Position numbers and translations under genes: made by a program. Shown in pieces: positions 3,116 through 35,660 of a DNA stretch of 35,660 nucleotides. The stretch's first letter is position 1, and every line of letters starts with the position of its first letter. Source of the DNA: a virus; IMG/VR virus record IMGVR_UViG_3300043449_001007, positions 1-35,660 of that record; one strand, 5' to 3'. The notes under the pieces were generated by a model that was given only the letters and a program-made list of their open reading frames with translations, was not told where the DNA came from and made no database searches.

Positions 3116-4063
3116 CTAGGGGCGCATGACTTTATAGGTCTCAATACATCGGCAATTCCAAGGCGATGACTCGCCGGGCCACCTGTCGCCGTTAGAATAT
3201 GGCTGGTCGAGCGGCGCGATTGACTTGTTCATGATGCGGTGTTCGTCGCGCGTTCGGTTGTCGAGCGTCGCGTTCCAAACTTTCATGACGAGGTAATCAG
3301 GGCCAAGTTCATCGGCGGCCTCGCGCCACGCTAACTGGCCCCCGACCCGCTGGGACTCAAGCGCGACCGTCCGAGCCTGCAATTCCGCGTTATAGGCCTT
3401 GTAGCGGCGACGGTATCCGGCCGTCATCTGCTCAATCTGGCCCTCGGTCAGCGCTTTGCCCGCCTCACGCGCCTGCTTCAAGGTCGAGTCAAACGCCTTG
3501 GGGCGAAGTTCGTAGCCGAGCGCCTTGGTGTAGTCACCAGACCGTAGGGCACCCTCAAAGTTGGCGATAATGCCTTCTTGATACGGCGTCAGGCCAAGGG
3601 TGTCGACTAGCCCCTGCGCGACTCGGCGCGGGCTGACCCCAGCGGTGAGCCCACGCTCGGCGGCCTGCCTGAGCGCGTCGCCCATCTGCCCCTGATAGTA
3701 GGCAAACGACCCGGTCTCGATGGTGCGGACCGCTTCAAGAACGCGCGGATCGAGTTCGTCAAACCGGATATTAATCCGACGTAGGACCGGGGTGCCGTTC
3801 GTCACGGCCGTCGCCGCCATCGTCACGCCTTCCCTCGCCAGCTTTCGCGCCTGATAAAACGCCCGAGCCACTACGGCGGTGCCCAAAAGTTCATCAAGCA
3901 AGCCATCGATGTCGCCGTTTTCAAGATAACGTTCCATCCCGGCCAGCGTCATACCTTTTGCGAGCTTTTGAATGGCTGATAAAATAGCCGAGCGCAGACC
4001 GGGCTCAAGCCGCGCCGCCCGGCGCTCAAAAGCCGCAAAAATGGCCTTTTCGGCTTCGGTCAC
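3116..4063 (-). CDS. Minor head protein, SPP1 gp7 / Mu F family
   Basis: The 315-aa protein ends in the hallmark of the phage Mu gpF / SPP1 gp7 family. Around residues 260-305 it has 'W.ATLDNRTRDEHRIMN' followed by 'D.PYSNGDRWPGESSPWNCRCIE', including the conserved NCRC pair. The N-terminal part is helical. These proteins bind portal or scaffold inside the procapsid and are thought to help DNA exit or protect ejected DNA. Its ATG overlaps the stop of the upstream methyltransferase (ATGA at 4060-4063), so translation is coupled. In most phages this gene directly follows portal; here a methyltransferase is inserted between them. Confidence 0.88.
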   Translation of the reverse strand: MTEAEKAIFAAFERRAARLEPGLRSAILSAIQKLAKGMTLAGMERYLENGDIDGLLDELLGTAVVARAFYQARKLAREGVTMAATAVTNGTPVLRRINIRFDELDPRVLEAVRTIETGSFAYYQGQMGDALRQAAERGLTAGVSPRRVAQGLVDTLGLTPYQEGIIANFEGALRSGDYTKALGYELRPKAFDSTLKQAREAGKALTEGQIEQMTAGYRRRYKAYNAELQARTVALESQRVGGQLAWREAADELGPDYLVMKVWNATLDNRTRDEHRIMNKSIAPLDQPYSNGDRWPGESSPWNCRCIETYKVMRP

Positions 4064-6131: not shown

Positions 6132-7589
6132 CTACAGCGAGAGAGAGGAAAATCCCACCGCCGCAGGCGGGGTCGAGAGCTTGGCGTATCCAGCGGACGC
6201 CGCGTCGATTTGGTCGTCGTGCTTTCCAAACGGAAAATCGGCCGCCTCGAGTCGGAACGCATCGCGCCACGGGTCCCCGGCCTTTTCCGGTCCGAGTAAC
6301 ACGTTGCCCGCCATCGCCGCCGACGCGAGTGGGGTCGCCCGTTCAGCTTTCGACCCCGTTGGGTGTTCAGTATACACGGCTAAGCCTAACGCTTGCAACC
6401 GCTTGACCAACGCGCGGGTCGCATCGTCGCCCGAGATGCCCGCCTGCTTTTCTATCCAGTAGGTGACTTTTCCCTTCCCGTATCTGGCCAAGTCGTCGCG
6501 GGCGGTCTGTTCGATGAGCGCGTCACGCGCCGCGACCTCAACGCGGAATCGTTTCACGTGCAACAGGATAGCCGTCCCATCGGGGGCGCGAGTCCATGCC
6601 GCCCCAGCGGTGTAGTCCGGGTCCGAGTTGCGACCGGCCGGACGGGTGCCCGCCATGTCCCAGTAGCGGACGACGCGGGTCCCAGCGGGGGCGGTGTCGA
6701 TGGTGCGCCACCATTCCCACTTGAACATCCCGCCTTCGCGCGGACGCGGACGGCCTTGCAACAGCGACGCGTACCCGTATTCAAGCAACTCAAGACGTTT
6801 CTCGGTTAACCATGCCGACCCTCGGTGCTCGGGCCAGAGCGGGGCGCCGACCTCACGGCCTAGCGGGTCGTTGGGCTCGGCCTCGGCCGGTAGATCGAGG
6901 ACGCGCCAGAGTCCGGCCTGCCGCTCAAGTAACCGCCCGGCCGGATCGTCTGAGTGCCACCGGGACATCGTGAACAGAACCGCCGTATGGGGTTCCGCGC
7001 GGGCCAGCAGGTCCGAGGTAATCCAGTCGAACACCCGGTCGCGGTGCGCCGGGGACTCGGCCTCGTCCCGCGAGCCGATAGGGTCGTCAATCAAGATGAG
7101 GTCCGCGTTTACACCAGCGACACCGGCCCCGGCCCCGACCGCGCGAACGCCGCCCCCCGCCTCGGTTTCCCATTCGCCCGCCGCATCGCGCTCGGATGAG
7201 ATGGGGACGCCTCGGGCCTTGGCCAGCCGCCGGATTTCGCGCGAGAACTTGTCGGCCTGCCGCTGGTTATACGACCCGACGATGAGACGGGTGCGCGGGT
7301 CCCGCTCGAGCCGGTAGACGCCGTAGCCAATAGTGTTGTGCTCGGTCTTGCCGTGCCGGATGGGGATTTGAAAGTAGGCCCGCCGTGTGACGCCCCGCGT
7401 GACGTCGTCCAAGATGTCTTGCATCGCCCGGAAGTGGGCGTAGTCCCAGCGGTGTTCCGGCCGAGCGTCCGCGATCCACTCAACGTAGTTCCGGGGCATC
7501 GCGTCCTGTTTGGCCTTCCGACGCCGTCGCCGCTCGAGCTCGATGGCGAGCGCCGCACGGACACGGGGGTCGGTCAGCGTCAGGGTCAT
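6132..7589 (-). CDS. terL: Terminase large subunit
   Basis: The 485-aa protein has both halves of a phage packaging motor. The ATPase half has a deviant Walker A 'IPIRHGKTE' (about 75-83) and Walker B 'LILIDDP' (about 164-170), followed by 'TMSRWHSDDPAGRL' as coupling motif. The nuclease half has acidic motifs 'RYWDMAGT' (Asp about 311), 'DPDYTAGA' (about 323-330) and 'FGKHDDQIDAASAGY' near the C terminus, the expected RNase H-like Asp set. It overlaps the preceding small gene by ATGA (7586-7589). The packaging mode (cos or pac) cannot be decided from the sequence. Confidence 0.95.
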   Translation of the reverse strand: MTLTLTDPRVRAALAIELERRRRRKAKQDAMPRNYVEWIADARPEHRWDYAHFRAMQDILDDVTRGVTRRAYFQIPIRHGKTEHNTIGYGVYRLERDPRTRLIVGSYNQRQADKFSREIRRLAKARGVPISSERDAAGEWETEAGGGVRAVGAGAGVAGVNADLILIDDPIGSRDEAESPAHRDRVFDWITSDLLARAEPHTAVLFTMSRWHSDDPAGRLLERQAGLWRVLDLPAEAEPNDPLGREVGAPLWPEHRGSAWLTEKRLELLEYGYASLLQGRPRPREGGMFKWEWWRTIDTAPAGTRVVRYWDMAGTRPAGRNSDPDYTAGAAWTRAPDGTAILLHVKRFRVEVAARDALIEQTARDDLARYGKGKVTYWIEKQAGISGDDATRALVKRLQALGLAVYTEHPTGSKAERATPLASAAMAGNVLLGPEKAGDPWRDAFRLEAADFPFGKHDDQIDAASAGYAKLSTPPAAVGFSSLSL

Positions 7590-7870
7590 TCCAGCCCGGC
7601 GGCCTTGGCTTGGGCGGCGAGCTCGTCATCGGTGAGCTCGGTAATGACCTTGAGGTCGATGGTCCCCTCATGGCTATGCGGCACGAGCTTGGTATACAGC
7701 AGGGTCCAGAACTTGTCAGGCGACTCTCGCGCCCACGCCATCAGGGCGTCTACCCCGCCAATGCCCTCGGCCGCCAGCCGGATCGCCTCGCGAGCCTCGA
7801 CGGTGAGCTTGTTAGGGGTGCCCTTCGGTCGGCCGGGACCGCGCTTCATGTTCGGATTTCCGCGTGGCAT
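7586..7870 (-). CDS. Putative terminase small subunit
   Basis: The 94-aa protein begins with a basic 'GPGRPKGTPNKLTVEAREAIRLA' segment (about 11-33) that occurs at the N terminus of many small proteins directly upstream of phage terL. The C-terminal half is acidic and helical. It overlaps terL by four bases and is the first gene of the late block. The ATG at 7868-7870 has no ribosome site and coincides with the predicted transcription start, so translation may be leaderless. An internal ATG at residue 8 is an alternative start. Position supports DNA recognition for packaging; no full HTH can be shown by eye. Confidence 0.65.
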   Translation of the reverse strand: MPRGNPNMKRGPGRPKGTPNKLTVEAREAIRLAAEGIGGVDALMAWARESPDKFWTLLYTKLVPHSHEGTIDLKVITELTDDELAAQAKAAGLE

Positions 7871-7872
7871 GA

Positions 7873-7906
7873 TTGCATATATACCGGTTTAAAATTGCAT
7901 ATGCAA
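7873..7906. promoter_or_regulatory. Operator-like TTGCATA/TATGCAA sites at the late promoter
   Basis: TTGCATATGCAA at 7895-7906 is a perfect 12-base palindrome covering the -35 box. A further TTGCATA at 7873-7879 covers the end of the -10 box and the bases just before the ATG. The same half-sites occur as a spaced inverted repeat at 16493-16516, upstream of the early promoter. Sites on top of the core promoter suggest repression of late genes until the regulator is lost or modified. The protein that binds is not known. Candidates in this genome are the RHH protein (15571-15795) and the two-HTH protein (10776-11360). Confidence 0.5.
7878..7906 (-). promoter_or_regulatory. Late promoter, leaderless
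   Basis: On the minus strand TTGCAT (7901-7906), a 17-base spacer and TATATA (7878-7883) form a good sigma70-type promoter. An A-rich stretch at 7921-7935 could act as an UP element. The predicted start, about seven bases after the -10 box, is 7870-7871, which is the A of the ATG of the small-terminase candidate or the base before it. The transcript would therefore have no leader. The stretch 7871-7956 holds no gene. Confidence 0.62.
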
Positions 7907-7956
7907 CTATAGAGCTTGCACATTTTTTCTCTTTGGCCTGCGTCGACGTTCTAAGT

Positions 7957-8181
7957 CTATGCGGATAGCGAACTTATGACAAGAGGACGGACCTGACACT
8001 TGGTATGTCCGAGTGCTTGGGCGTTGTCCGCGTGCCACAGCAACCAACCATCGAACGGGATTGGCGTCGCCCCATAGGTCACCGCGTAGGTAATCGGCCA
8101 CCATAGGGCGACCGGTTCGGGGTCCTCTTGGACCTCGTCGCCGTCGTCATCGAACAGGGCTTCGAACTCGACCTCGTCCAT
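7957..8181 (-). CDS. Hypothetical acidic protein, last early gene
   Basis: The 74-aa product has a strongly acidic start, 'MDEVEFEALFDDDGDEVQEDPEP', followed by a Trp- and Tyr-rich middle 'LWWPITYAVTYGATPIPFDGWLLWH'. No known domain is recognised. The ATG at 8179-8181 is chosen because longer versions of this frame run into the 58-aa membrane gene upstream. The spacing to that gene is 13 bases. It ends the early block, with 86 bases before the late promoter's first gene. The acidic head could mimic DNA, but that is speculation. Confidence 0.6.
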   Translation of the reverse strand: MDEVEFEALFDDDGDEVQEDPEPVALWWPITYAVTYGATPIPFDGWLLWHADNAQALGHTKCQVRPLVISSLSA

Positions 8182-8194
8182 GCCCGGGACCCGC

Positions 8195-8371
8195 TCAACG
8201 GTCGTCGCGAGTCGTGATAGCGGCGCGGGCCGCGAGAAACGGGGTCTTGACCGCGAGGACAGCGGCCAGCCCCACGGTGGCGATGAAAAAGACGGGGGTC
8301 GCGATACAGACAAAGACGCACGTCCACAGCAGGTCAGCCAAGGTGATGAGGCGGCGCGGGATTTTGGGCAT
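8195..8371 (-). CDS. Small membrane protein (58 aa)
   Basis: ATG at 8369-8371 follows a GGGGG ribosome-site-like run. The 58-aa product starts 'MPKIPRRLITLADLLW' and carries one long hydrophobic segment, or two short ones, at about residues 14-50 ('CVFVCIATPVFFIATVGLAA' and 'VLAVKTPFLAARAA'). It ends in charged 'TTRDDR'. It is probably an inner-membrane protein with a basic N terminus in the cytoplasm. It lies 13 bases upstream of the acidic 74-aa gene. No family is recognised. Confidence 0.6.
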   Translation of the reverse strand: MPKIPRRLITLADLLWTCVFVCIATPVFFIATVGLAAVLAVKTPFLAARAAITTRDDR

Positions 8372-8460
8372 GAGACCCCCGGATCGAGTGAGGTGAGACA
8401 GCGTGGATGAAATGTGCCACGGTGGGGCGCGTTTGGCTATCGGGGCGCTAATGCGTGCGG

Positions 8461-8862
8461 TCAGGGGTCGAGATACGGGCTCGCCATAAAGGGCTCGATA
8501 GTGACCTCGAGGCGGCCGTCTTTGGGGCGGTCGTAGCGGGTGGCGATGATGCGGACCACTTGCTTGTCGTCGTCAAAGAGGATGCCGCGCAAGGCGTCAA
8601 GCGAGACCTTGAGGCGGTTATCCAAGTCCCCGGCCCGGATACCCCGATACCAGTCGACGGTGACCGTCACCGGCGTTCCAGCGGGAAAGGGGACGGTCTT
8701 GCCGGTGTAGCCAAGTTGATAGAGCGTGGCTCGGACGGTGCTCTTGTAGTCCTTAGCCTCTTTCGAGATGTAGAGATGCCCTCGAGCTTGCCGCCAGTAG
8801 CGGTTGGCCGAGGGCGGTTCGGGCAGGGTCAGCCTGAGGCGCGGGGGCGGTGTAAAGGTCAT
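8461..8862 (-). CDS. rusA: RusA-like Holliday junction resolvase
   Basis: The 133-aa protein matches the RusA family throughout. It has 'PPSANRYWR' near the start (about 16-24), 'GDLDNRLKVSLDALRGILFDDDKQVVRI' (about 78-105) with the conserved acidic residues, and a closing 'GRLEVTIEP'. RusA dimers cut Holliday junctions and resolve branched DNA before packaging. The ATG at 8860-8862 is chosen over an upstream one because it forms an ATGA overlap with the previous gene. It works downstream of the Erf annealing protein and the exonuclease of the same block. The 89 bases after it (8372-8460) contain nothing recognised. Confidence 0.93.
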   Translation of the reverse strand: MTFTPPPRLRLTLPEPPSANRYWRQARGHLYISKEAKDYKSTVRATLYQLGYTGKTVPFPAGTPVTVTVDWYRGIRAGDLDNRLKVSLDALRGILFDDDKQVVRIIATRYDRPKDGRLEVTIEPFMASPYLDP

Positions 8863-9386
8863 CGGGGGCCGAGCACGTGTGGGGGGATGAGGCGACGGTA
8901 GGGCTCGGACGCCCATGAGTCGATCACGAGTCGCCGCGCATCCGGGAAGGTCATGAGGTTATACGTCTCAAAGTGCGTGCCGTCGGGGTTGGACTTGCGC
9001 GTGGTCGGGAAGTCGCGGGTCCACAAGGTTTCGCGAAACACGTCGAGGTCGAGCAAGTACCAGAGGCAAATACCGACGGACTGAGCACTTGCGAACCCGT
9101 AGAACATCCAGTCCGCGTGGCCGTCCATGATTTTCGAGAGCTCGGTTTCGGTGCCGGTGTCGCGGGCCGCGCGAATGGTGAACTCGGTCGGGTAGCGAGT
9201 CACGTAGTCATGCCGCCGGATGCGACAGGCAATGTGCCGAGGTTGGACGGTGAGCGAGACCATGTCGGTCGCCCTTTTGGTGTCGGTGGCGAATGAGGAC
9301 TCGGTCAACAGATGCGGACCAACGGCTAACCGTATGGCGTGCAAATACTTATCGGACCACGCGCGGTCGATGTCATAGGTGGTCAT
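8859..9386 (-). CDS. Hypothetical protein, possible nuclease-like fold
   Basis: The 175-aa protein begins 'MTTYDIDRAWSDKYLHAIR'. It has a mixed region 'CRIRRHDYVTRYPTEFTIRAA', then 'TELSKIMDGHADWMFYGFA' and 'WYLLDLDVFRETLW'. The order Glu ... Asp-Trp-x-Phe-Tyr-Gly ... Asp-Leu-Asp is reminiscent of small phage proteins suspected to have a PD-(D/E)XK-like core, but no clear catalytic set can be shown. ATGA overlaps with both the helicase gene and the RusA gene tie it to DNA replication or recombination. Its function is unknown. Confidence 0.75.
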   Translation of the reverse strand: MTTYDIDRAWSDKYLHAIRLAVGPHLLTESSFATDTKRATDMVSLTVQPRHIACRIRRHDYVTRYPTEFTIRAARDTGTETELSKIMDGHADWMFYGFASAQSVGICLWYLLDLDVFRETLWTRDFPTTRKSNPDGTHFETYNLMTFPDARRLVIDSWASEPYRRLIPPHVLGPR

Positions 9387-10483
9387 ACGCGGCTCGCCGT
9401 GCGAATGGCGTGTTGCGCGGCCTGCCAATCGCGCCGGATATGGTCGGGCAAGTCGGCGACCAGCCCGTGCTCAACAAAGAGGCGACAGGCCGCCCCCACC
9501 TGACCGCCGTCCAACCGGTGCTTGCCGATTGCGCATCCCATCAGGTGCGCGGCGACGATGTCTTGCAACGGGGTCAGGCCCGCCTCAACGGCCCGCCGGT
9601 CCTTTTCCGTGATGTCGTCCCGCAAGACACGGTGCAAGAACAGCACGCCGTCGGCCTCTTCCTCGATGGTGCCCGCCCCCTTAAGGGCTTGCAGATCGGG
9701 CGCGGCGTACCACGCGAGCTTGGTTCCGCCGGTCGCTCGGGACTGCTGTGAGGTAACAATCATCACGACCCCGGCCTCTTCGGCTAACATCTTGAGTTGC
9801 CGAATAGCAACGGACACCTGCGCGTACAGGTTAGTTTGGTCGCCCAAGTCAAGGCGAAGCAGATGGTCCACAATTACCACGCGGCACCCCCGCTCGGCCG
9901 CATCCAAGACCGCCAAGCGAAGCGCCGGGACGCTGATGGTCGGCTCGTCGTAAAGAAAGAGGCGCGGGGCCATGTCGAGCGAGCCGGGATAGATGCGGGG
10001 TTTCAGCAAAGCATCCGTCACAATGCCGACGGCCTTCGCAAAACCCTCTCGCCCACCGGGGACGGCCGAGAAGTCCCCACGCAAAACGTCAGCGGGATGC
10101 ACGTGCACCGAATGACAGGCCAGCCGGATCACGACCTCTTTGGCGGGCGTCTCAAGCGGGAAGTACGCCACCGGCGTATGCGGCGTCGGGGCGATGAGCG
10201 ACCACAACCAGTTGAGCACGAACAGGGTCTTGCCGGACCCCGTGCGGGCGGACACGATGTGAACCGACCCCGGCAAGAGCGGTCCGTAGATCGCGTCCAA
10301 GTCCCGCCACGGAAACCGGACGTGCAAATCGGGCGGGGCGATGCGTTCTACCACCTCGGCCATGGTGTCGTGACGGACCTCTGCGGGCCCGGTGACCGGG
10401 TGTAGCGGCTGGACGTCGGGGCTAAGCATCCGATGGCGTTGGCGAGGCGTTTCTGGCGAAAGGCGGGGGGATGAGGCGGTCAT
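9383..10483 (-). CDS. DnaB/RecA-type replicative helicase
   Basis: The 366-aa protein has a RecA-like ATPase core. Walker A is 'SARTGSGKTLF' (about 75-85), the second motif is 'AYFPLETPAKEVVIRLA', Walker B is 'CRVVIVDHLLRLDLG', the sensor motif is 'MIVTSQQSR', and 'LKGAGTIEEEADGVLFLHR' completes the set. This resembles the C-terminal domain of DnaB-family helicases. The usual N-terminal primase-binding domain is short or absent. Start ATG 10481-10483 makes an ATGA overlap with the gene before it; the longer open frame upstream is a shadow. It probably unwinds phage DNA for a host polymerase, since no polymerase or primase is encoded. Confidence 0.85.
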   Translation of the reverse strand: MTASSPRLSPETPRQRHRMLSPDVQPLHPVTGPAEVRHDTMAEVVERIAPPDLHVRFPWRDLDAIYGPLLPGSVHIVSARTGSGKTLFVLNWLWSLIAPTPHTPVAYFPLETPAKEVVIRLACHSVHVHPADVLRGDFSAVPGGREGFAKAVGIVTDALLKPRIYPGSLDMAPRLFLYDEPTISVPALRLAVLDAAERGCRVVIVDHLLRLDLGDQTNLYAQVSVAIRQLKMLAEEAGVVMIVTSQQSRATGGTKLAWYAAPDLQALKGAGTIEEEADGVLFLHRVLRDDITEKDRRAVEAGLTPLQDIVAAHLMGCAIGKHRLDGGQVGAACRLFVEHGLVADLPDHIRRDWQAAQHAIRTASRV

Positions 10484-10779
10484 ACCTGCACCGCCCCCGC
10501 TGGCAACATGGTCCGAGGAACGTAATCGCGGAAGTCCCGAAGGAATTGCGCCCAGCCGTCCGGCCGCTCGACCCCTTGCCGGATGGCAAGTTGGCGGTGC
10601 TTGGCAAAGTTCAGGACGGCCGCCTTGGCCGCTTCGAGGCCGTAGAGCCGGACAATGGGACCGAGATCCCGCCCGACCCGTCCATACGCGATGGCCCCGA
10701 CGTTGACCATCCACAGGTCGCCGATGGTCGCGACCCAATTCGGCGCGTCGCTCGCGTCGGCGCGTTCAGCGGTGGTCAC
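10480..10779 (-). CDS. Small replication-module protein, possible helicase loader
   Basis: The 99-aa protein starts with GTG at 10777-10779, giving a GTGA overlap with the preceding gene. It is helical, with 'WVATIGDLWMVNVGAIAYGRVGRDLGPIVRLYG' followed by 'FLRDFRDYVPRTM'. It has no ATPase motif. Because it is translationally coupled to both the two-HTH protein before it and the helicase after it, a role as helicase loader or adaptor is plausible. That rests on position only. Confidence 0.72.
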   Translation of the reverse strand: MTTAERADASDAPNWVATIGDLWMVNVGAIAYGRVGRDLGPIVRLYGLEAAKAAVLNFAKHRQLAIRQGVERPDGWAQFLRDFRDYVPRTMLPAGAVQV

Positions 10780-11360
10780 TCGTCCGCCTTTGTTGCCCGC
10801 TTCTTCGTTTGCATGAGTCCCGCCTTGCGTAACATCTCGTCGATGGCCTGCCGTGACACCCGGCGGCGCTTGGCGATATTCGTCGTTGAAAAGCCCTGAT
10901 TCCATAACTCGATCACCTCGGACCGCTCGGCGGTCATTTCTTCGTGCTTGGGCCGGATCTTGACGCCATGTGCTTTCAAGACTTGCCGAACCCGGGCTTG
11001 GGACAACTCAAACTTTTGGGCAATTTGGCCGGTGCTCATCTTTTGCATGGTGTAACATTCCACCATTTTCACCTCAACTTGGTCGCGCTTGGCCCGCCAG
11101 ACCGCTAGCAATTTCTCGCGCGGGGTGACCTCGAGCGGGTCAATGCCGGACCGGGCCTGCATCCGGCGCGTCCACTCAAGGTGAAAGGCGTCGCGGACCA
11201 GGCGATCTTTGTGCGGCCAGTTGCGGCCGTCCTTGGGATTGGGGTCCACATCAGCACATCCCACCACCGCGAGGGCCGCTTTCAGTTCTTCAAAAGCCGT
11301 CGAGGCTTCCCACCGCTCGGTCGCCTGTTGCGCCGACATCTCGCCACGGCCGGGGGTCAT
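10776..11360 (-). CDS. Protein with two tandem helix-turn-helix segments
   Basis: The 194-aa protein has two similar HTH units near its C terminus. The first is 'MSTGQIAQKFELSQARVRQVLKAHGV' (about 110-135). The second is 'FSTTNIAKRRRVSRQAIDEMLRKAGL' (about 158-183). Each has the 'I A ... S ... V/I ... L' pattern of recombinase and sigma-region-4 type HTHs. The N-terminal half is helical without a known domain. Direct coupling to a loader-like gene and the helicase suggests an origin-binding initiator; a regulator of the TTGCATA operators is the main alternative. It has ATGA and GTGA overlaps with its neighbours. Confidence 0.75.
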   Translation of the reverse strand: MTPGRGEMSAQQATERWEASTAFEELKAALAVVGCADVDPNPKDGRNWPHKDRLVRDAFHLEWTRRMQARSGIDPLEVTPREKLLAVWRAKRDQVEVKMVECYTMQKMSTGQIAQKFELSQARVRQVLKAHGVKIRPKHEEMTAERSEVIELWNQGFSTTNIAKRRRVSRQAIDEMLRKAGLMQTKKRATKADE

Positions 11361-11608
11361 ACGGCCCCCGTCAGATGGTCAGCAACGGTCTCGGCCGCGC
11401 GAGTGCAATACCACGCCGCCTTCCGTAAATCCTCGTAGGCTTGCTCGCCACTTCCTTTGCGGCCGGTGCGCCACAGGTACTTCACCGCATTGCCCCGGCA
11501 ATACGCGATGAACGCCTCGTCGCCCAAGGCCGCGCGGATTGCTTCGATGGCTTCGATGCGGCCTGCCGTATAATGCGCGGGCCGGTTGACGTTGTCGTGA
11601 TTGGTCAT
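11357..11608 (-). CDS. DUF3310 family protein
   Basis: The 83-aa protein matches the DUF3310 pattern closely: 'VNRPAHYTAGRIEAIEAI' at the start, 'YCRGNAVKYLWRTGRKG' in the middle and 'EDLRKAAWYCTRAAE' near the end. It is a short helical protein found in many phages, often in nucleotide or replication modules, with no settled function. It lies 15 bases after the Erf gene and overlaps the two-HTH gene by four bases. Confidence 0.92.
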   Translation of the reverse strand: MTNHDNVNRPAHYTAGRIEAIEAIRAALGDEAFIAYCRGNAVKYLWRTGRKGSGEQAYEDLRKAAWYCTRAAETVADHLTGAV

Positions 11609-11623
11609 CTGTCAGGGATTCCC

Positions 11624-12361
11624 CTAGAAGGGCAAATCGTCGTCGTGACGATCGTATTCAGAACTTATGTTAACGACGGGCGTCGGGGCCGCAGGCCTCG
11701 CACCTTTCGGCGGCCAAATCACGCCGTCGCACGACTTGTCCTTGCACTTGAAGTCCGGCGCCTTCGGATTCTTCTTGCCCACGCGGTTGTCCCACATCGG
11801 CCCCGTGCACTTGGGGCACACCGGTTCAGGGTCGCCCGACGCATCCAGCGCGGCGGCGGCTTCCGCCACGGCGGCGGGCACGGACGACGGGGCAGATGGC
11901 GCGGGCGGGGCCGATGCGGCGGGGCGGGACACCGGCGCGGCCGGGCGTGCGCTCGCGACGTTCCCGTCGTCGTCCTCGTCGGTGGCAAGCGCCAGCAACG
12001 CCGAAACGCCATAACGTCGGCCGTAGGTCATTGCGCCGCCAGCGCCCTGTGGGTCGACCTTGGCAATCGGGATAACACAGCCGTTTGTCAGGTGTTCCCC
12101 GGACGCGTGAACCAGCATTGTCTCGACCACAATCGCCGTGACGCGGCCTGCCTCGTCATAGCTTGGGGCCGTGGCGCCCTGCACAAGCGCCAATCCGTGT
12201 TTCGCAAGCGTCGGCCGGACGGCCTCAAGAATCGCGTCGAGGCTGGCGTAGCTGTTCTTAAAGTGCGGATTCTTGCTGTCTTTTTGGACGCTCTTGATCT
12301 CGCCCTGCGCCTTTGCAAGTGCGGCGGCCAAATTGGAAATGCCCTGCTCTGAGACTTTCAT
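11624..12361 (-). CDS. erf: Erf-family ssDNA annealing protein with zinc-ribbon-like segment and SSB-like tail
   Basis: The 245-aa protein has a clear ERF domain at about residues 5-125. It shows 'LAAALAKAQGEIKSVQKD', 'NSYASLDAILEAVRPTLAKHGLALVQ' and the signature 'AMTYGRRYGVSALLALATDEDDDG'. A long Ala/Pro linker follows. After it comes a CxxC...CxxxxC set (Cys 182, 185, 206, 211), a possible zinc ribbon. The last residues, 'DRHDDDLPF', strongly resemble the acidic C-terminal tip of bacterial SSB. The ERF domain anneals single strands in phage recombination. The tail may recruit host SSB partners. ATG 12359-12361 has AGGT upstream. It lies next to the exonuclease it would work with. Confidence 0.9.
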   Translation of the reverse strand: MKVSEQGISNLAAALAKAQGEIKSVQKDSKNPHFKNSYASLDAILEAVRPTLAKHGLALVQGATAPSYDEAGRVTAIVVETMLVHASGEHLTNGCVIPIAKVDPQGAGGAMTYGRRYGVSALLALATDEDDDGNVASARPAAPVSRPAASAPPAPSAPSSVPAAVAEAAAALDASGDPEPVCPKCTGPMWDNRVGKKNPKAPDFKCKDKSCDGVIWPPKGARPAAPTPVVNISSEYDRHDDDLPF

Positions 12362-12398
12362 CGTGCGGTACCTCGTAGGAAGGGGTGAACTGCGGGGG

Positions 12399-13064
12399 TC
12401 AGAAATAGTGCCGGATGCGTTCGTAGATGGCCTTCGTGGCCGCGACATCCTGTTCGCAATACTCAAGGATTTCTGCGTATTGGCCGCCCTCATAGAGCGG
12501 GAAAACGTCTGCGGCTGAAATGCCACCGAGCTTGCCCGGCACCCCGAGAAACTTAGACCACTCGTCAAGGCCCTCGCCCGCGATTCGAACATCCCAGTTC
12601 AACAACACGGCCTTGCAATCAAAATGCGCCTCGGTCTGATACTTGCGAAACCACTCGCGGACCGTGGCCTGCGGGACCATTGGCGAGATGCCATGAAAGA
12701 GCGACCGGATGACGATAAAGCGTAGGTCCCACGCGCCATTCCATGTGACAATCTGTTCGGCCCTGACGACGTGTTCCCAGAAAAGCTCGAGCAACTTCTT
12801 TTCGTCCGCCTCGTCCGGCATCAAGTAGGACCCGGCCGACGTGCCCACGCATAGCACGCGGCCGAGTCGGGGGTTGAGCGAACAAGTTTTCGCAAGATCC
12901 GCTTCCCACTTGTTCCGGTCGGTCGCCCGCCACTTCGCAATGGCCTCGTCCGACTTGTAGTTGGCGGGGGGAAACCGGTCGGCGGCCGGATAGTTCATGT
13001 TCAGCGAGGCCGCCAGCGGGACGGTCTCGATGTCTACCACGAGGTAACGGTCGGTCAGGCGCAT
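12399..13064 (-). CDS. DEDD-type 3'-5' exonuclease (PolB-exo-like)
   Basis: The 221-aa protein is a stand-alone proofreading-type exonuclease. The ExoI motif is 'YLVVDIETVPLA' (Asp and Glu at about 11 and 13). The ExoII region is 'QIVTWNGAWDLRFIV', and the ExoIII motif is 'ILEYCEQDVAATKAIYERI', with Tyr and Asp in the DEDDy pattern. It matches the predicted PolB-like 3'-5' exonuclease group seen in many phages and usually next to annealing proteins. It could trim DNA ends for Erf. The ribosome site is AAGGGA before ATG. The start overlaps the previous small membrane gene by ten bases. Confidence 0.88.
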   Translation of the reverse strand: MRLTDRYLVVDIETVPLAASLNMNYPAADRFPPANYKSDEAIAKWRATDRNKWEADLAKTCSLNPRLGRVLCVGTSAGSYLMPDEADEKKLLELFWEHVVRAEQIVTWNGAWDLRFIVIRSLFHGISPMVPQATVREWFRKYQTEAHFDCKAVLLNWDVRIAGEGLDEWSKFLGVPGKLGGISAADVFPLYEGGQYAEILEYCEQDVAATKAIYERIRHYF

Positions 13065-13282
13065 GGGATTCCCTTTTGCCGCTCGGCGGCGGACGAATAC
13101 GTGAAAGTCTTTGATGCGGTCATGTCCCGCGTGTGTTGCTCGATCGCGGCGTCCATCCGGTCTATCACCTTAAGCCACCGGGTCGCCGCTCGACGGCGCT
13201 CAAGGTCCACCACGGCGCAGGCAATGACATAGGCCATGACGGCATTAAGCACGGTGGTCGCAAAAAAGAACGCAAGCATCAT
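13055..13282 (-). CDS. Small single-span membrane protein
   Basis: The 75-aa protein has an N-terminal hydrophobic segment 'MMLAFFFATTVLNAVMAYVI' extended by 'ACAVVDL' (about 1-27). A basic and helical cytoplasmic part follows, 'RRRAATRWLKVIDRMDAAIEQH'. It has an ATGA overlap with the gene before it and a ten-base overlap with the exonuclease after it. No known family is recognised. It could tether early functions to the membrane. Confidence 0.68.
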   Translation of the reverse strand: MMLAFFFATTVLNAVMAYVIACAVVDLERRRAATRWLKVIDRMDAAIEQHTRDMTASKTFTYSSAAERQKGIPCA

Positions 13283-13488
13283 GGCAACATCCCCCGCATA
13301 AGGTCTGGGGTGAACGTGTAGGTCACGACCTCGTATCCCTGCTTTCTCAGCCGCGAGGCGGCCGCATACGCGTTGGGATGGGTCGCGCCAAGCGGGTGCA
13401 TCACGAGCGCCGCCTTCTTAGCCTCGTGATACTGCACGACCGCTGGAATGAGGTCAGCGTTAAAACCGAGCGGGAAATCAGCGGACAT
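13279..13488 (-). CDS. Hypothetical protein, 69 aa
   Basis: From ATG 13486-13488 the product is 'MSADFPLGFNADLIPAVVQY', continuing with a helix and a 'RLRKQGYEVVTYTFTPDLMRGM' end. No family is recognised. An upstream ATG at 13522-13524 would add 12 residues but overlaps the neighbouring gene further. Neither start has a clear ribosome site, so coupling to the preceding gene (11-base overlap) is likely. Confidence 0.6.
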   Translation of the reverse strand: MSADFPLGFNADLIPAVVQYHEAKKAALVMHPLGATHPNAYAAASRLRKQGYEVVTYTFTPDLMRGMLP

Positions 13489-13648
13489 AGGTGCGGGCCG
13501 GAAGAGGGTAGGACCGCTCACCATCGGCGGCGGCGTGGATGTTGTGCTTCATGATGCCCGGGATGGTCTCAAGGTTGGCCTTACACACCGAGCAAACCGC
13601 TGGGGTGGGTTGCACAATCGGGGCAGGCGGCGGCAAGAGGCGCGGCAT
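13478..13648 (-). CDS. Mini zinc-finger-like protein (56 aa)
   Basis: The ATG at 13646-13648 shares one base with the stop of the preceding gene (TAATG). The 56-aa product has a Pro-rich start and then CSVC...HNIH, a C-x2-C-x12-H-x2-H array that looks like a compact C2H2 finger with one residue fewer than usual between the histidines. The remainder is unstructured. It could bind DNA or a protein partner. No family is recognised. Confidence 0.55.
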   Translation of the reverse strand: MPRLLPPPAPIVQPTPAVCSVCKANLETIPGIMKHNIHAAADGERSYPLPARTYVR

Positions 13649-13920
13649 TATTCGCCCACCGGCTCGGTGTAGTCCGCGCAAAAGTCCATCCACTCGCGCT
13701 CGACCCGCTCAATGAACGCAATCAGACTTTCGCCGTCCAATCCCCAAAAGATTTCCAGTTCGCCGCTCGGGGATTTGCGGCCGGGGATTGAGAGCTTCCA
13801 GAGGCCATTCTGCCAGCGCAGGGATGGTTCCCATTTGCGGAACACGCTGTCGATCGTCCGCATCTGTAGCTCGGCCGCATAGCGGCTCAGGGGGTCAATC
13901 AAACGTCCAAACATCTGCAC
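13648..13920 (-). CDS. Hypothetical protein, 90 aa
   Basis: The product starts 'MQMFGRLIDPLSRYAAELQM'. It has a Trp-rich beta region 'WEPSLRWQNGLWKLSIPG', continues 'GELEIFWGLDGESLIAFIERV', and ends in an acidic tail. No domain is recognised. Its stop and the next start overlap (TAATG), placing it in the early operon just after the DNA methyltransferase gene, with a 36-base gap. Confidence 0.68.
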   Translation of the reverse strand: MQMFGRLIDPLSRYAAELQMRTIDSVFRKWEPSLRWQNGLWKLSIPGRKSPSGELEIFWGLDGESLIAFIERVEREWMDFCADYTEPVGE

Positions 13921-13956
13921 CTCGGGTGCTATGGTCCCGGCGTCCGGCCGGGGCGG

Positions 13957-15378
13957 TCACGCCTCAGGCGTGGGGTCTACATTCGCATTTAATAGACGAT
14001 TCGTCAAGGCATCGCGTAACCGGAACCCAATCCACGCCGCCACCGGTGAGGCCACCCCGTTCCCGCAAGCCTTATAACGGGCCGTGTCGGTGGCCGGCTT
14101 CCCCTTCTCGTCCGGCACATCGGTCCAGCCATCGGGCCAGCCCATCAGCCGCTCGCATTCCACCGGGGTCAGGCGGCGCGGGATGCCCACATACCCGATT
14201 GCCAAGTCGGTCGCTTCTTTGTAATCTCGCGCAGAAAAAGTAGAGGCTATGCCAAGTTTCGCATATTCCGCATCACGCTGTTGAGTAAACACTACTTGAT
14301 CGTTGGTCGTGCCGAGGGTAAGTCGCTTACCCTCGGATACTAACGGCCCCTTGCCGCCGCCAGGCTTGCCCTCACGGTTGCGAAGCACAACGGGCTCGGA
14401 CACAATGCCCATTCCAGCCGAAGTTGTGCCGAGTGCTGGAGATAACTCTATTTCAGATATCGGCCGCTGAGTCTGGTGAAATGCCATTGTATGTGGCACA
14501 CCCTCACCCGTGTTGCCAGCCCGAATGGTGTGCGCGACACCATTCGGCGAAACACTTTGATTGTATACATCAATCGCCAACACGCTCTGTTGTTGCTGTC
14601 CTGAATTGGACGCAGAATACAGGGTCGGCCATGTTGATTCAGGCCCAAACACGCGTTTTCCTTGATAATCCCACGGGGTTAAGCACCCGATCGACTGGTC
14701 AATGCCTGTTCCAGCATCGCTGGCAACGCTTTGCCGCGCTTTTCGGCGCGTCTGAGAATTCCCTGACAGGCTTTCGGCGAGAGATAATACTTCGGCGGGA
14801 TTAACGCCTCGGGTTCGAGTACCGAGGACAAAGACACGGCGTCGGCGCTGTGGCACCCCGAAGTATTGAGCGTCCAGTACGCGCCAAGCGGCGATTCCGC
14901 GACGACCTTCAACAACACCACCGCCGCCGCGCCAGCCTCGGGCTGGGACGGCAACATCGCTTCCAACGAAAGCTGAGAGGATTCCGGCAAAATCTGCCCC
15001 TTGGTTTGAGGATAACATTCCGACAACGTTTTCATATAAAGCAAATGGCGCCTGCGATTCTTCCCAAATGCGAAGCGCGTCAAGCACGAGCACCGATCGC
15101 TGACCGTCCATGCCTTCGCGCTTCCCTGCGATAGAAAAGTCCTGACAGGGTGCGCCAAAGGTCAGCATGGTAAACGGGCCGACCTGGCTTACAATGTCCT
15201 GCCCATTGAGCATTGACACATCGCCCCACAGCGGAACATCGGGCCACCGATGCTTCAACACCCGCCGCGGAAAGGTATCCCATTCCGCGTGGCCGACGCA
15301 CCGCCAGCCTGCCATCTCAAATCCCATGCTCATGCCGCCAACGCCCGCAAATAGCTCAACAAAGGTCAGGTCACTCAT
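13957..15378 (-). CDS. DNA (cytosine-5) methyltransferase
   Basis: The 473-aa protein has the ordered motifs of a C5 cytosine methyltransferase. Motif I is 'FVELFAGVGGMSMGFEMAGW' (about 6-25), motif IV is 'TFGAPCQDFSIAG' with catalytic Cys about 78, motif VI is 'LYENVVGMLS', and motif VIII is 'PQRRRRVFVLG'. The closing motif X region is 'YKACGNGVASPVAAWIG'. Between VIII and X is a long variable region of about 200 residues that should hold target recognition. That part is visibly less GC-rich than its neighbours. It probably methylates phage DNA against host restriction; no partner nuclease is present. The ATG at 15376-15378 overlaps the upstream gene by eight bases. Confidence 0.93.
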   Translation of the reverse strand: MSDLTFVELFAGVGGMSMGFEMAGWRCVGHAEWDTFPRRVLKHRWPDVPLWGDVSMLNGQDIVSQVGPFTMLTFGAPCQDFSIAGKREGMDGQRSVLVLDALRIWEESQAPFALYENVVGMLSSNQGADFAGILSAFVGSDVAVPARGWRGGGGVVEGRRGIAAWRVLDAQYFGVPQRRRRVFVLGTRTRGVNPAEVLSLAESLSGNSQTRRKARQSVASDAGTGIDQSIGCLTPWDYQGKRVFGPESTWPTLYSASNSGQQQQSVLAIDVYNQSVSPNGVAHTIRAGNTGEGVPHTMAFHQTQRPISEIELSPALGTTSAGMGIVSEPVVLRNREGKPGGGKGPLVSEGKRLTLGTTNDQVVFTQQRDAEYAKLGIASTFSARDYKEATDLAIGYVGIPRRLTPVECERLMGWPDGWTDVPDEKGKPATDTARYKACGNGVASPVAAWIGFRLRDALTNRLLNANVDPTPEA

Positions 15379-15571
15379 GGCTGGCCTCAAGGCACAGAAT
15401 TGGGTCATCAGTCCGGCGGGCGACCGCAAGAATCGCTCGCACTTGCAACAAATCGTCCTCAATGCGGGCTAGGTCCTCAATAAGTCGCTCGCGCTTGCTC
15501 GTAAGCTCGGCCTCAATGCCCCCGAGCGTGTCGGGAAGGGACCGCAGGAATCCGGTGGCGGGGGTGTGCAT
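15371..15571 (-). CDS. Coiled-coil protein, 66 aa
   Basis: The product starts 'MHTPATGFLRSLPDTLGG' and then forms a long amphipathic helix, 'IEAELTSKRERLIEDLARIE' continuing 'DDLLQVRAILAVARR', likely a coiled coil. Its ATG (15569-15571) shares a base with the stop of the RHH gene (TAATG). Its end overlaps the DNA methyltransferase start by eight bases. No family is recognised; it may assist either neighbour. Confidence 0.68.
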   Translation of the reverse strand: MHTPATGFLRSLPDTLGGIEAELTSKRERLIEDLARIEDDLLQVRAILAVARRTDDPILCLEASHE

Positions 15572-15795
15572 TAGTCGGATAACCTCGCCGGTTGCGGATC
15601 GCGCTCGCCGTCCGGCGGCATAATGTTGCCAGAAAACACCTGCTGTGCCGCAAAGTTGACCGCGTAGCGCCGGATAAACGTCGAGATTGGTAGCGCGGCG
15701 TCCTCGGCGGCGGCCTTGACGATTGCGTATTCTGAGTCCGAGAACCGGACGGGAATCACGCGCGGCGGACCGTCGGATAGGGGTTTGGGGGTCAT
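15571..15795 (-). CDS. Ribbon-helix-helix DNA-binding protein
   Basis: The 74-aa protein has an Arc/CopG-like core at about residues 10-48. The strand is 'PRVIPVRFSDSEYAIVKAAA', followed by the helix-turn-helix part 'ALPISTFIRRYAVNFA'. Such proteins bind short palindromes as dimers. It is therefore a reasonable candidate for the TTGCATA/TATGCAA sites near both main promoters. It is among the first genes of the early block and overlaps the 62-aa gene by ATGA. Confidence 0.72.
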   Translation of the reverse strand: MTPKPLSDGPPRVIPVRFSDSEYAIVKAAAEDAALPISTFIRRYAVNFAAQQVFSGNIMPPDGERDPQPARLSD

Positions 15796-15980
15796 TGGTC
15801 GTCCGGTCCCTCAATAAGGCGTTCGTAGATTTCGACTTCAACGATTTCGATGTCGGTCAGGTAGGGGTGGCGCTCGCGCATCTCGTCCGCGATTTGGTGC
15901 GCCTCGCCCAGCGAGTCGGCGTAGGCCTCACCGCCGTCCTCGTGCCACCGGACGATGTAGTAGCGTTCGGTGTGCATCAT
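15792..15980 (-). CDS. Hypothetical protein, 62 aa
   Basis: The product starts 'MMHTERYYIVRWHEDGGEAY' and continues with an acidic helix and strand, 'IADEMRERHPYLTDIEIVEV'. It is small and alpha/beta, with no known family recognised. Both ends are translationally coupled by four-base overlaps, which supports it as a real gene. Confidence 0.66.
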   Translation of the reverse strand: MMHTERYYIVRWHEDGGEAYADSLGEAHQIADEMRERHPYLTDIEIVEVEIYERLIEGPDDQ

Positions 15981-16192
15981 GCCGCCATCGCGCGGCGAGC
16001 GTTGCGCTTGGCCTCATCGTTGTACCAAAAGGTGCCAAGCTCGGGCTTGATCTTCCATGAGATGCCATACTGCGAAATCGCAGAGCGCGTCTGGGTGCGA
16101 GTATAGCATACGCAATGCGCGTCCTCAAAGGTGACAATCGTGCGGTCAAACAAAGCATCAATCGCGGCGGCAAATCGGGTTGGGGCGGTCAT
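15977..16192 (-). CDS. Hypothetical protein, 71 aa
   Basis: ATG 16190-16192 has a strong ribosome site (GAGGTT, six bases upstream), so the longer open frame is not used. The product contains 'FAAAIDALFDRTIVTFEDAH', two cysteines in 'HCVCY' and a basic end 'AKRNARRAMAA'. Its end shares a 16-base DNA match with the end of the neighbouring 61-aa gene. The function is unknown. Confidence 0.68.
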   Translation of the reverse strand: MTAPTRFAAAIDALFDRTIVTFEDAHCVCYTRTQTRSAISQYGISWKIKPELGTFWYNDEAKRNARRAMAA

Positions 16193-16246
16193 CTGAACCT
16201 CGGTAGAAATGGGGTGAGCTACAATTACTGCGCCATCGCGCGGCGA
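15983..16246. repeat. 16-bp direct repeat at two gene ends
   Basis: The 16 bases at 15983-15998 and 16231-16246 are identical, 248 bases apart. On the minus strand they encode the RRAMA ending of two otherwise different small proteins. This may be a trace of gene duplication or of homologous joining during module exchange. Confidence 0.5.
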
Positions 16247-16410
16247 AGCGTATAGCGAGCATCCTGCAAGCTCGCGACCACAAACTGCCGAACCATCGGC
16301 TCGCGGCGCTTGCGGGACTCGGCGGCATAGACCTGCACCAACCATTGCCCCTCGTACTGACGAATGTGACCGTGCCGACCGTTCTCGTGTTGGATGTAAA
16401 GCTCGCGCAT
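16225..16410 (-). CDS. Hypothetical protein, first early gene
   Basis: The 61-aa product starts 'MRELYIQHENGRHGHIRQYE', followed by 'GQWLVQVYAAES', a basic linker and a C-terminal helix ending 'RRAMAQ'. ATG 16408-16410 has a GGGG run nine bases upstream and leaves a leader of about 37 bases after the early promoter. An in-frame ATG at 16438-16440 lies only about seven bases from the predicted transcript start and would add ten residues. No family is recognised. Confidence 0.6.
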   Translation of the reverse strand: MRELYIQHENGRHGHIRQYEGQWLVQVYAAESRKRREPMVRQFVVASLQDARYTLRRAMAQ

Positions 16411-16453
16411 CGTTCGACCCCGTCGAAAGGTCGGCGTCATTGCCGACGGGTGT

Positions 16454-16482
16454 AGATTACACGTTTCCCGAAAGCTTGTCAA
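16454..16482 (-). promoter_or_regulatory. Early promoter
   Basis: On the minus strand TTGACA (16477-16482, perfect -35), a 17-base spacer and TAATCT (16454-16459) form the best sigma70-type promoter in the window. The predicted start is near 16447. It would drive the whole early block down to about 7957 and needs only host polymerase. Confidence 0.75.
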
Positions 16483-16492
16483 TAGCCCGTTT

Positions 16493-16516
16493 TTGCATAT
16501 TCCGCCGCGTATGCAA
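16493..16516. promoter_or_regulatory. Inverted repeat TTGCATA-N10-TATGCAA upstream of the early promoter
   Basis: Perfect seven-base arms, TTGCATA (16493-16499) and TATGCAA (16510-16516), are separated by ten bases. They lie about 46-69 bases before the early transcription start. The same half-sites make up the operator-like sites at the late promoter (7873-7906). A position upstream of the -35 box suits an activator or a looping site rather than simple occlusion. Confidence 0.55.
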
Positions 16517-17025
16517 GGCCCCGTTTTTAAGGGCAGACCCATGCCATCTGGGGGCAGTACCCCAGTTGTCAGGTCATGCTTAAACCGAAAGTCTACCGTC
16601 ACCGCTCTGGGGAAGCGTCCCGTGGGTCGCCGGGGGCTCGTGCAAAGGTTAGTGTTTCGGGCCGTGGTAGATGCCCGTCCTGCTCGGTGCTCGTCGGTCG
16701 TCTGCCCCACCTCGTTTCAGGCCGGAAGCGCGAGGATTTGGTTGTTGGGACCGAGAACACCCACGGTTAGGATTGGATCGCGCGGCTCGGGAACCGGGCG
16801 CGGCGGGAAACCAGAGACTAAGCCCGCTGTCATGCGTCCTGCGATTATGGTGCGGCACCCCCAAAAAGAGCGGCCCCTGCGATCCGCGAGAGACCCATCG
16901 CCCACCACTCAAGGGGGCTTTGGCGCGAACCAACAGGGGCCGGTCAACTTTTACTGCAATGTGCGACGGTCTCTGCGCCGCGTGTTGAGATTAACCGGCC
17001 GTAGGATGACTTTCCCAGTCCTTGC
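16517..17025. other. Main non-coding control region
   Basis: About 510 bases separate the last late gene from the early operator, by far the largest gap in a genome where genes mostly overlap. Open frames here lack ribosome sites and known domains. It holds the terminator-like stem (16863-16942), a perfect CTGGGG-GCAGTA-CCCCAG hairpin at 16548-16565, and a further imperfect long stem around 16943-16999. No iterons or tRNA were found. A replication origin or a structured RNA could lie here, but nothing shows it directly. Confidence 0.6.
16863..16942 (-). terminator. Candidate late-operon terminator
   Basis: On the minus strand CGGCCCCTG (16934-16942) pairs perfectly with CAGGGGCCG (16871-16879) and is followed by CTC and a run of five T (16863-16867). 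The 54-base loop folds in part by itself, including TTGG-TTCGCG-CCAA at 16920-16933. A nine-base GC stem with a T-run fits a factor-independent terminator, although the loop is unusually long. It lies just after the last late gene and before the early promoter, where transcription should stop. Confidence 0.45.
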
Positions 17026-17277
17026 TCATCCGCCGTCCTCGCCCTCAAACCGGTCGGGGTCCCGCGCGTGGTCTAACAGGCGCATCGCCGCGTCGACCAT
17101 CGTGGGCAGGTCACCCCCGCACCACGGGCAGACGGTCCACGGGTCCAAGATGTCGCGCGAGCCGGACCACAACCACCCCCCGGCCTCGAAGCTATACCAG
17201 AACGCGCCCCGAGCTTGGCCCTCGGCCCGGGCCTGGCACTTGACCGTCGGCTGCGTGCGCGTACATACAGCGTACAT
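17026..17277 (-). CDS. Small zinc-ribbon-like protein, last late gene
   Basis: The 83-aa product starts 'MYAVCTRTQPTVKCQARAE', has a Trp-rich middle 'FWYSFEAGGWLWSG', then 'WTVCPWCGGDLPTM' and an acidic tail. CPWC with the earlier cysteines could bind zinc. ATG 17275-17277 comes two bases after the stop of the metallophosphoesterase, with no separate ribosome site, so translation is probably coupled. No known family is recognised. Confidence 0.6.
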   Translation of the reverse strand: MYAVCTRTQPTVKCQARAEGQARGAFWYSFEAGGWLWSGSRDILDPWTVCPWCGGDLPTMVDAAMRLLDHARDPDRFEGEDGG

Positions 17278-17279
17278 AC

Positions 17280-18599
17280 TTACCGCCTTGGCTTGGATAC
17301 GGGTGACCCCGCAAAGAGCGGCCACCGGCCCGTGACGCCGTGCTCGGGGTGGACCTGCAAGAGCCATTGGGTCGGGCGGTCCACCTTGCCCAAGGCGTTG
17401 AGCGCGAACTCGTTGGACCCGATGAGCGACCCGTTCACAAACGACTCGCCCGAGGCGTGGGGCAAGCTCGACGCGTTGTGGAAATGCCCGAACGCCCAAT
17501 AGTGGACCGGCAGCCCGCGCCCCGCCTCAAGGGCGTTCATGTTGCCGATGAGGCGGTTCAAACCGTACCACGGAATCGAGTTCCAAGATTTGACGTCGTG
17601 GCCGTGCGTTTGCAGCCATCGCCACCCGTAAATATCGAACGCCACCGCGTAGCTGTTCGGGATATAAAAGGTAACATTTGGTACGTTACGCAGGTTTTCG
17701 CGGGCGAAGAGGTAGCATAATGTATCCCACGAGCGGGTCGGCTCTTTCTGTTGGATGCGCCGGGCATCGGGCAACCGCCCGTGATTCCCTGACGTACAAA
17801 ATACCTCGATGGTTGGGTAGACGGCCGCCAACTCGCGAATCGCCTTGGCTAAGACCATGCCGCAATCATAGACGGCCCAGATGACGTTTTCGTGGTCCGA
17901 GTGTTTCTCGAGCTCGTGAATCGTGCCCGAGACGAAGTCCCCGTTCGCCGCGATGACGCATCGCTCAAACCGGTAGCCGCCCCCCGCCTCAAGGCGGTTC
18001 TTGATGCTTAAATGGCTCTCGACGATGGTATCGACCCGCTCGTGAAAGATGGCGTCCGAGTATTCGTTAAAGCCGCGCATCGCCTCGGAACTCACCGCCT
18101 CGCCCGCGTGCCAATCGGACCACATTTGCACCATGGTTTCGGTCGTCACCTTCTTGCTCGGTTTCACAACCGGGGCGCGATAGGGCGGTGGGGGCGGGAA
18201 GGGCCGGGCCACGCGCGTGACCAAATCCTCAAGCGTCTTGCGTAGAGACCGCTCGCCCGCGATGGCCGTCAACGCCTCGCGCTCTTCCCGCATCATGGCG
18301 AGCCGTTCCCGGCGCTCGCGCTCGGCCTCGATGGGGTCAATCGGCGTGGGGGCCGGTAGCTCGGGCGGGGTTGGATATTGGCTCATATCCACCGGCGCAG
18401 GGCGCTCGACCCGGATGGTCGCCCCGTACTTTTGCTTCGCATTGGTCACCGAGGCGTAACTGCGGACCGCCTTGCCGCCGTGAAACTTGTGGTTCAATTC
18501 GCTGACAAGCTGTCGGGCGGTGACACGCATCGCCGAGCGCTCGGCCAGATAGGCGACCTCTTCGGTCGTCCACGGGGTCATATCGCTGCGTAGAGCCAT
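17280..18599 (-). CDS. Calcineurin-like metallophosphoesterase with N-terminal HTH-like domain
   Basis: The 439-aa protein carries the full metal-binding set of the family: 'SDWHAGE' (Asp 162, His 164), 'AANGDFVSG' (Asp 221), 'TSGNHGR', 'LQTHGHD' and 'AFGHFHNA'. The first 60 residues, 'MTPWTTEEVAYLAERSAMRV' onward, resemble a Myb/homeodomain-like helical DNA-binding unit, joined by a Pro-rich, charged linker. It may act on DNA or a nucleotide. The start is uncertain: neither ATG 18597-18599 nor the next at 18579-18581 has a ribosome site, and a pyrimidine-rich CCCTTT repeat precedes the first. It sits after the lysis genes, unusual for a DNA enzyme. Confidence 0.82.
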   Translation of the reverse strand: MALRSDMTPWTTEEVAYLAERSAMRVTARQLVSELNHKFHGGKAVRSYASVTNAKQKYGATIRVERPAPVDMSQYPTPPELPAPTPIDPIEAERERRERLAMMREEREALTAIAGERSLRKTLEDLVTRVARPFPPPPPYRAPVVKPSKKVTTETMVQMWSDWHAGEAVSSEAMRGFNEYSDAIFHERVDTIVESHLSIKNRLEAGGGYRFERCVIAANGDFVSGTIHELEKHSDHENVIWAVYDCGMVLAKAIRELAAVYPTIEVFCTSGNHGRLPDARRIQQKEPTRSWDTLCYLFARENLRNVPNVTFYIPNSYAVAFDIYGWRWLQTHGHDVKSWNSIPWYGLNRLIGNMNALEAGRGLPVHYWAFGHFHNASSLPHASGESFVNGSLIGSNEFALNALGKVDRPTQWLLQVHPEHGVTGRWPLFAGSPVSKPRR

Positions 18600-35344: not shown

Positions 35345-35660
35345 CCTTCCACCGCCACCAAATGCACCGACGCCGTGCCGGACGTCCACGCGGTCGCCTT
35401 AACGCGCACCGCAAACGCCCCGACCAACTCAACGCGGTAGATGCCCGCCGCCGAAATGGTCGTATTCAGCATCCCGGTGGCCTCATTCAGCGCCTGAATA
35501 GCCGCGTAGGTCGTCCCATCGCGCGTGATCTCGACGTTGAGCGTGCCCGAGAAGGTGCCGACCACCTGCACCCCGGCCGCGCCGTTAAAGCGCCGGTTAT
35601 TCGGCTCTTCCACGCGGTAGTCGAGCGCCACAATTTCGTCGAGCGCATCAATCGTCCCGG
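35341..35660 (-). CDS. Beta-rich virion protein, 3' part (continues at 1-271)
   Basis: This is the remainder of the 113-aa gene starting at 271 in the left copy. The stop is TGA at 35341-35343, overlapping the ATG of the next gene. The C-terminal residues include 'AAGIYRVELVGAFAVRVKAT' and 'TASVHLVAVEG', regular beta strands of a small sandwich domain. See the entry at 1-271. Confidence 0.8.
   Translation of the reverse strand, partial: GTIDALDEIVALDYRVEEPNNRRFNGAAGVQVVGTFSGTLNVEITRDGTTYAAIQALNEATGMLNTTISAAGIYRVELVGAFAVRVKATAWTSGTASVHLVAVEG
35412..35660. repeat. Right copy of 249-bp terminal overlap
   Basis: This is the second copy of the sequence at 1-249, identical except for G at 35533 where the left copy has A at 122. 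The single silent mismatch suggests that the two ends came from slightly different strains in a mixed population, or that one holds a sequencing error. Confidence 0.95.

Follow-up and report, generated by a model that had tools for sequence, protein, structure and literature searches.

Why does the same seven-base word stand in front of both the early and the late genes of a phage? Could this reflect recognition of two control regions by one protein? The stretch of DNA analysed here (the window) is a single IMG/VR record of 35,660 nt from an uncultivated phage (IMGVR_UViG_3300043449_001007), with almost all genes on the minus strand. Its ends overlap by 249 bases with 1 mismatch (1-249 against 35412-35660), so the genome is probably circular or permuted, at about 35.4 kb; the database listing gives no end repeats for the record despite this overlap. 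Round the circle, the early promoter (16482-16454) is followed by the early operon, terS, terL, portal and capsid genes, tail genes and an exonuclease-family gene. The early operon encodes an RHH protein, a C5 methyltransferase, a 3'-5' exonuclease, an Erf-like annealing protein, a two-HTH protein, a DnaB-like helicase and a RusA-like resolvase. Matches to phage portals and to the closest relative, IMGVR_UViG_3300005662_000265 (hereafter G001), were the basis for assigning the portal and capsid genes. The putative terS has a 23-residue match (52%) to the end of its G001 counterpart, and its profile match, phrog_11043, is of unknown function. The late operon is likely terminated by a hairpin lying between its end and the early promoter; an Rfam search of the sequence returned no match. 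Beyond it, a small minus-strand ORF (17026-17280) ends in CPWCGGDLPTMVDAAMRLLDHARDPDRFEGEDGG and possibly encodes a zinc-binding protein, in surroundings that otherwise resemble a long non-coding gap.

The word TTGCATA/TATGCAA occurs 7 times in the whole window, against 1.34 copies expected, a number reached in none of 100 shuffles. Five of the seven copies sit in two non-coding control regions, starting at 7873, 7895 and 7900 before terS and, ahead of the early operon, at 16493 and 16510. The half-sites that the preliminary description had placed there (7873-7879, 7895-7906 and 16493-16516) were confirmed. It had noticed one further copy, near 748; a second lies within a gene at 27318-27324, and these two coding copies represent about chance level, so that the motif is not frequent in genes. 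The reading as one palindromic operator did not hold, as spacing and arrangement of the half-sites differ between the late and early places. The perfect 12-mer TTGCATATGCAA occurs once in the window, at 7895, and the palindrome reported again over the late -10 and start region proved to be a single half-site (9/12 as a 12-mer), so that the late layout combines a 12-bp palindrome with one half-site at a distance of 22 bp.

Is the sharing of this word between the two regions more than chance? When both control regions were shuffled with dinucleotides kept, only 3 of 2000 trials produced any shared 7-mer with 5 copies, a test that corrects for all 7-mers, and the 4 copies of the commonest shared 8-mer, ATATGCAA, were equalled by a shared 8-mer in none of 2000. 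For a word taken from the late region, the probability of at least 2 copies in the early non-coding region is 0.0008. Five copies are unexceptional when all non-coding DNA is pooled, a comparison made without correction for GC-rich words, and three copies of one 7-mer inside 60 bp are not unusual across the genome (5 cases against 3.3 expected); 12-bp palindromes also arise by chance elsewhere. The late trio alone is thus not significant, and what gives it weight is its position together with the sharing with the early region. This evidence is good, but it depends on both places having been picked as control regions. The shared motif is real and probably functional, and since the word recurs in both regions beyond chance, one protein is probably the binder at both.

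Features of the two control regions and of the genes around them (positions in the window).
Feature	Position	Strand	Remarks
Probable terminase small subunit (terS), first late gene	7586..7870	-	directly before terL
Third half-site TTGCATA	7873..7879	+	direct repeat of 7895 at 22 bp; 9-mer ATTGCATAT repeated
Late promoter of the preliminary description, TTGCAT-17-TATATA	7878..7906	-	weak (3/6 + 4/6); rank 95 of 71,240
Perfect 12-bp palindrome TTGCATATGCAA	7895..7906		lies in the 86-bp gap upstream of terS
Better late promoter candidate, TTGTCA-17-TAGACT	7954..7982	-	rank 3; start predicted at about 7947
Likely last early gene, 74 aa	7957-8181	-	family match: none
Two-HTH protein, 194 aa, second candidate regulator	10776..11360	-	weak HTH matches
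RHH protein, 74 aa, best candidate regulator	15571..15795	-	PF21983, NikA-like
Promoter-like TTGAGG-17-TATACT, extended -10 TG	16100..16128	-	rank 4; inside ORF 15977-16192, upstream of the RHH gene
10/12 match to the 12-mer, TTGCGTATGCTA	16104..16115	-	overlaps spacer and -10 of the promoter-like site
Early promoter TTGACA-17-TAATCT	16454..16482	-	rank 2; A-tract 16490-16494 upstream of the -35
Inverted repeat TTGCATA-N10-TATGCAA	16493..16516		centred near -57 relative to the predicted early start
Terminator-like long, very stable stem, then T-run CTCTTTTT	16863..16945 (within 16855-16950)	-	z -2.99

Promoters were ranked with an approximate sigma-70 matrix, its hexamer frequencies taken from general knowledge. 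The late sites overlie the -35 and start of the promoter at 7906-7878, as expected for the occlusion first proposed, but occlusion then hinges on a weak promoter that ranks only 95th. With the stronger candidate at 7982-7954, which lies 40-75 bp upstream of them, the sites would fall in its leader, at about +41 to +75, and a repressor bound there would be a downstream roadblock and not an occluder. Two placements of the late sites therefore come into question: on a weak promoter that is perhaps regulated, or downstream of the stronger candidate. This stronger candidate sits in the end of the gene at 7957-8181. At the early promoter, the position of the inverted repeat fits the suggestion of a protein acting from upstream; activation, repression and no effect are all compatible with it. 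The second-best match to the 12-mer in the genome, at 16104-16115, lies within a gene and was picked up post hoc; since chance alone should give about 0.5 matches this good in a genome, it is suggestive by its position only.

Which protein might read these sites? Two candidates come from the early operon. The RHH protein matches PF21983 with an E value of 7.5e-7 and 29.6 bits (cut-off 27) over residues 13-49 of 74, and a PDB search with it gave only NikA (2ba3, E 0.19). A single-sequence monomer model (mean pLDDT 67) places helices at 20-32 and 37-55 with fair confidence and leaves the N-terminal strand unassigned. Matches of the two-HTH protein to late activator and Q-like families are weak (phrog_836, E 0.00098; phrog_79, E 0.00016), with no Pfam activator family above cut-off, and its structure model is poor (pLDDT 53). 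Searches of viral contigs with the RHH protein, the DnaB-like helicase and the two-HTH protein returned no relatives; in annotated phages, the RHH protein has one weak partial match and the two-HTH protein none. The RHH protein is the better candidate and most likely the putative binder of the TATGCAA sites, because it exceeds the Pfam cut-off, is early, lies near the operon start and is possibly autoregulated, while the two-HTH protein is a possible regulator of both sites. Of the proposal that one regulator serves both places, shared recognition is backed by the shuffle statistics, and the two proteins are candidates for the regulator. As a whole the proposal is plausible in its main lines and weaker in its particulars.

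In the reading we prefer, with a probability of roughly 0.4, TATGCAA is the half-site of a phage-specific DNA-binding protein, most likely the RHH protein of the early operon, which would repress the late genes and adjust the early operon and itself. The strong early promoter would fire without phage help. Accumulating RHH protein would then bind the palindrome and the extra half-site before terS and restrain late transcription. It would do so by covering the weak promoter there, or else by blocking polymerase that arrives from 7982 or reads through from the early operon. The early operon and the synthesis of the regulator would be tuned through the sites at 16493-16516 and perhaps at 16104-16115. 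To the observed motif, its statistics and its position, this account adds the binding itself, the protein responsible and the direction of the effect, which we infer; late repression is suggested by the overlap with the terS promoter region. The account is favoured by the two places being the main non-coding control points of a one-direction genome, and by the second-best 12-mer match overlying the promoter-like site upstream of the RHH gene. Against it, the motif is not conserved in terminase relatives with upstream sequence, and one dimer would have to bind differently at half-sites that abut in the late region and are 10 bp apart in the early one.

Could a late activator made early explain the same sites? 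The motif would then bind a protein such as the two-HTH candidate, which would turn on the promoter at 7906-7878, the early site providing feedback. That promoter is weak, as activated promoters are, and the protein does show its weak similarity to activator families; but the sites cover the -35 and start instead of lying upstream, the family matches are slight, and the promoter at the early site should work without an activator. We regard this reading as unlikely, and the same holds for chance. AT-rich promoter DNA in a genome of 63% GC might yield similar words twice, the motif was chosen after the sequence had been seen, 7-mer trios are common enough and relatives lack the word, but the dinucleotide-keeping shuffles of both regions give P of about 0.001 for the sharing.

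Binding by a host regulator is very unlikely. In its favour, the phage regulators are candidates only, and relatives on short contigs in two Gemmatimonadota genome bins make this phylum a likely host group. Among 200 Gemmatimonadota genomes, however, the 12-mer occurs in only 7 (8 sites; the reversed control gives 2), and none has the gapped form TTGCATA-N10-TATGCAA, so that a host regulon of the exact form is not visible; the host itself is uncertain. It is hardly credible that the late repeats act in RNA, forming a hairpin immediately ahead of the terS start codon once transcription has begun at 7982: the predicted leader fold does pair the palindrome with the downstream half-site in a 10-bp stem, but it is no better than shuffles (z 0.36), and the early copy, upstream of its promoter, would be absent from the early RNA.

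How does the preferred RHH-operator reading compare with known systems? RHH repressors (CopG, Arc and the NikA-like PF21983) resemble the present case in a small predicted DNA-binding protein of the early operon and in short palindromic half-sites; unlike them, half-site spacing varies between the two places here, and binding is putative. Autoregulation is common among RHH repressors, and autoregulation by the present RHH protein would fit that habit. CopG half-sites contain TGCA, a lead only, and NikA serves plasmid mobilisation together with a relaxase. Phage late activators (RinA/ArpU/LtrC, Q-like) act at promoters before terS; here too the control point is directly upstream of terS and a candidate lies in the early operon, but that candidate has weak profile matches only and the sites overlie the promoter. 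The lambda CII site is TTGC-N6-TTGC around -35, and TTGC words are found at the weak -35 here; a CII-type site at 7873-7906 was ruled out, the repeats being inverted or 22 bp apart. The P2 Ogr/delta site is a TGT-N12-ACA dyad near -55. Such a site was ruled out for the early dyad (about -57), which is TTGCATA-N10-TATGCAA without TGT/ACA. Literature on the exact word concerned unrelated matter only, and the literature searched contained none on RHH early/late switches in phages. The system appears to be of an ordinary kind among phage early/late control elements, in an instance that is not conserved. If the account is true, phages of a host group that has received little study, possibly Gemmatimonadota, would gain a regulator-operator pair open to testing, and the operator would exemplify turnover with the early module while structural genes stay; the general picture of phage gene control would be unchanged.

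Is there such turnover among relatives? Most structural genes are common to this phage and G001 (42-90% identity), and the early genes of G001 include none in common. Before its terS, G001 carries AACGTAT at 3279 and 3296 and inverted at 3307; the plan is the same, the word is not. Since chance should produce a few trios of this sort in a genome as large as this one, it is the place of the trio alone that is of note. A different half-site together with an unrelated visible early region is what joint change of operator and regulator would produce. AACGTAT (G001 is L002 of our set, 3279-3313) is the exact unreversed complement of TTGCATA, which has no meaningful mechanism and is probably coincidence. 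Conservation of the motif at the late place was not borne out: neither TTGCATA nor a trio precedes terS in the L003/L004/L005 group and L006, and TTGCATA is absent there from all other terminase or portal relatives with upstream sequence. No relative with a matching early region was found among the viral contigs searched. We think it unlikely that this lineage keeps the terS operator plan of palindrome and extra half-site while replacing the word together with the early regulatory module, giving each phage a private RHH-type switch (TATGCAA here, AACGTAT in G001). Among the further terminase or portal relatives, most lack the AT-rich gap before terS, and trios of other words occur only in L074, L091 and L025. 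In L091, a distant terminase relative, a long palindrome, GTTAGTGAGCACTCACTAAC, stands twice upstream (2399-2449) and resembles a repressor operator array.
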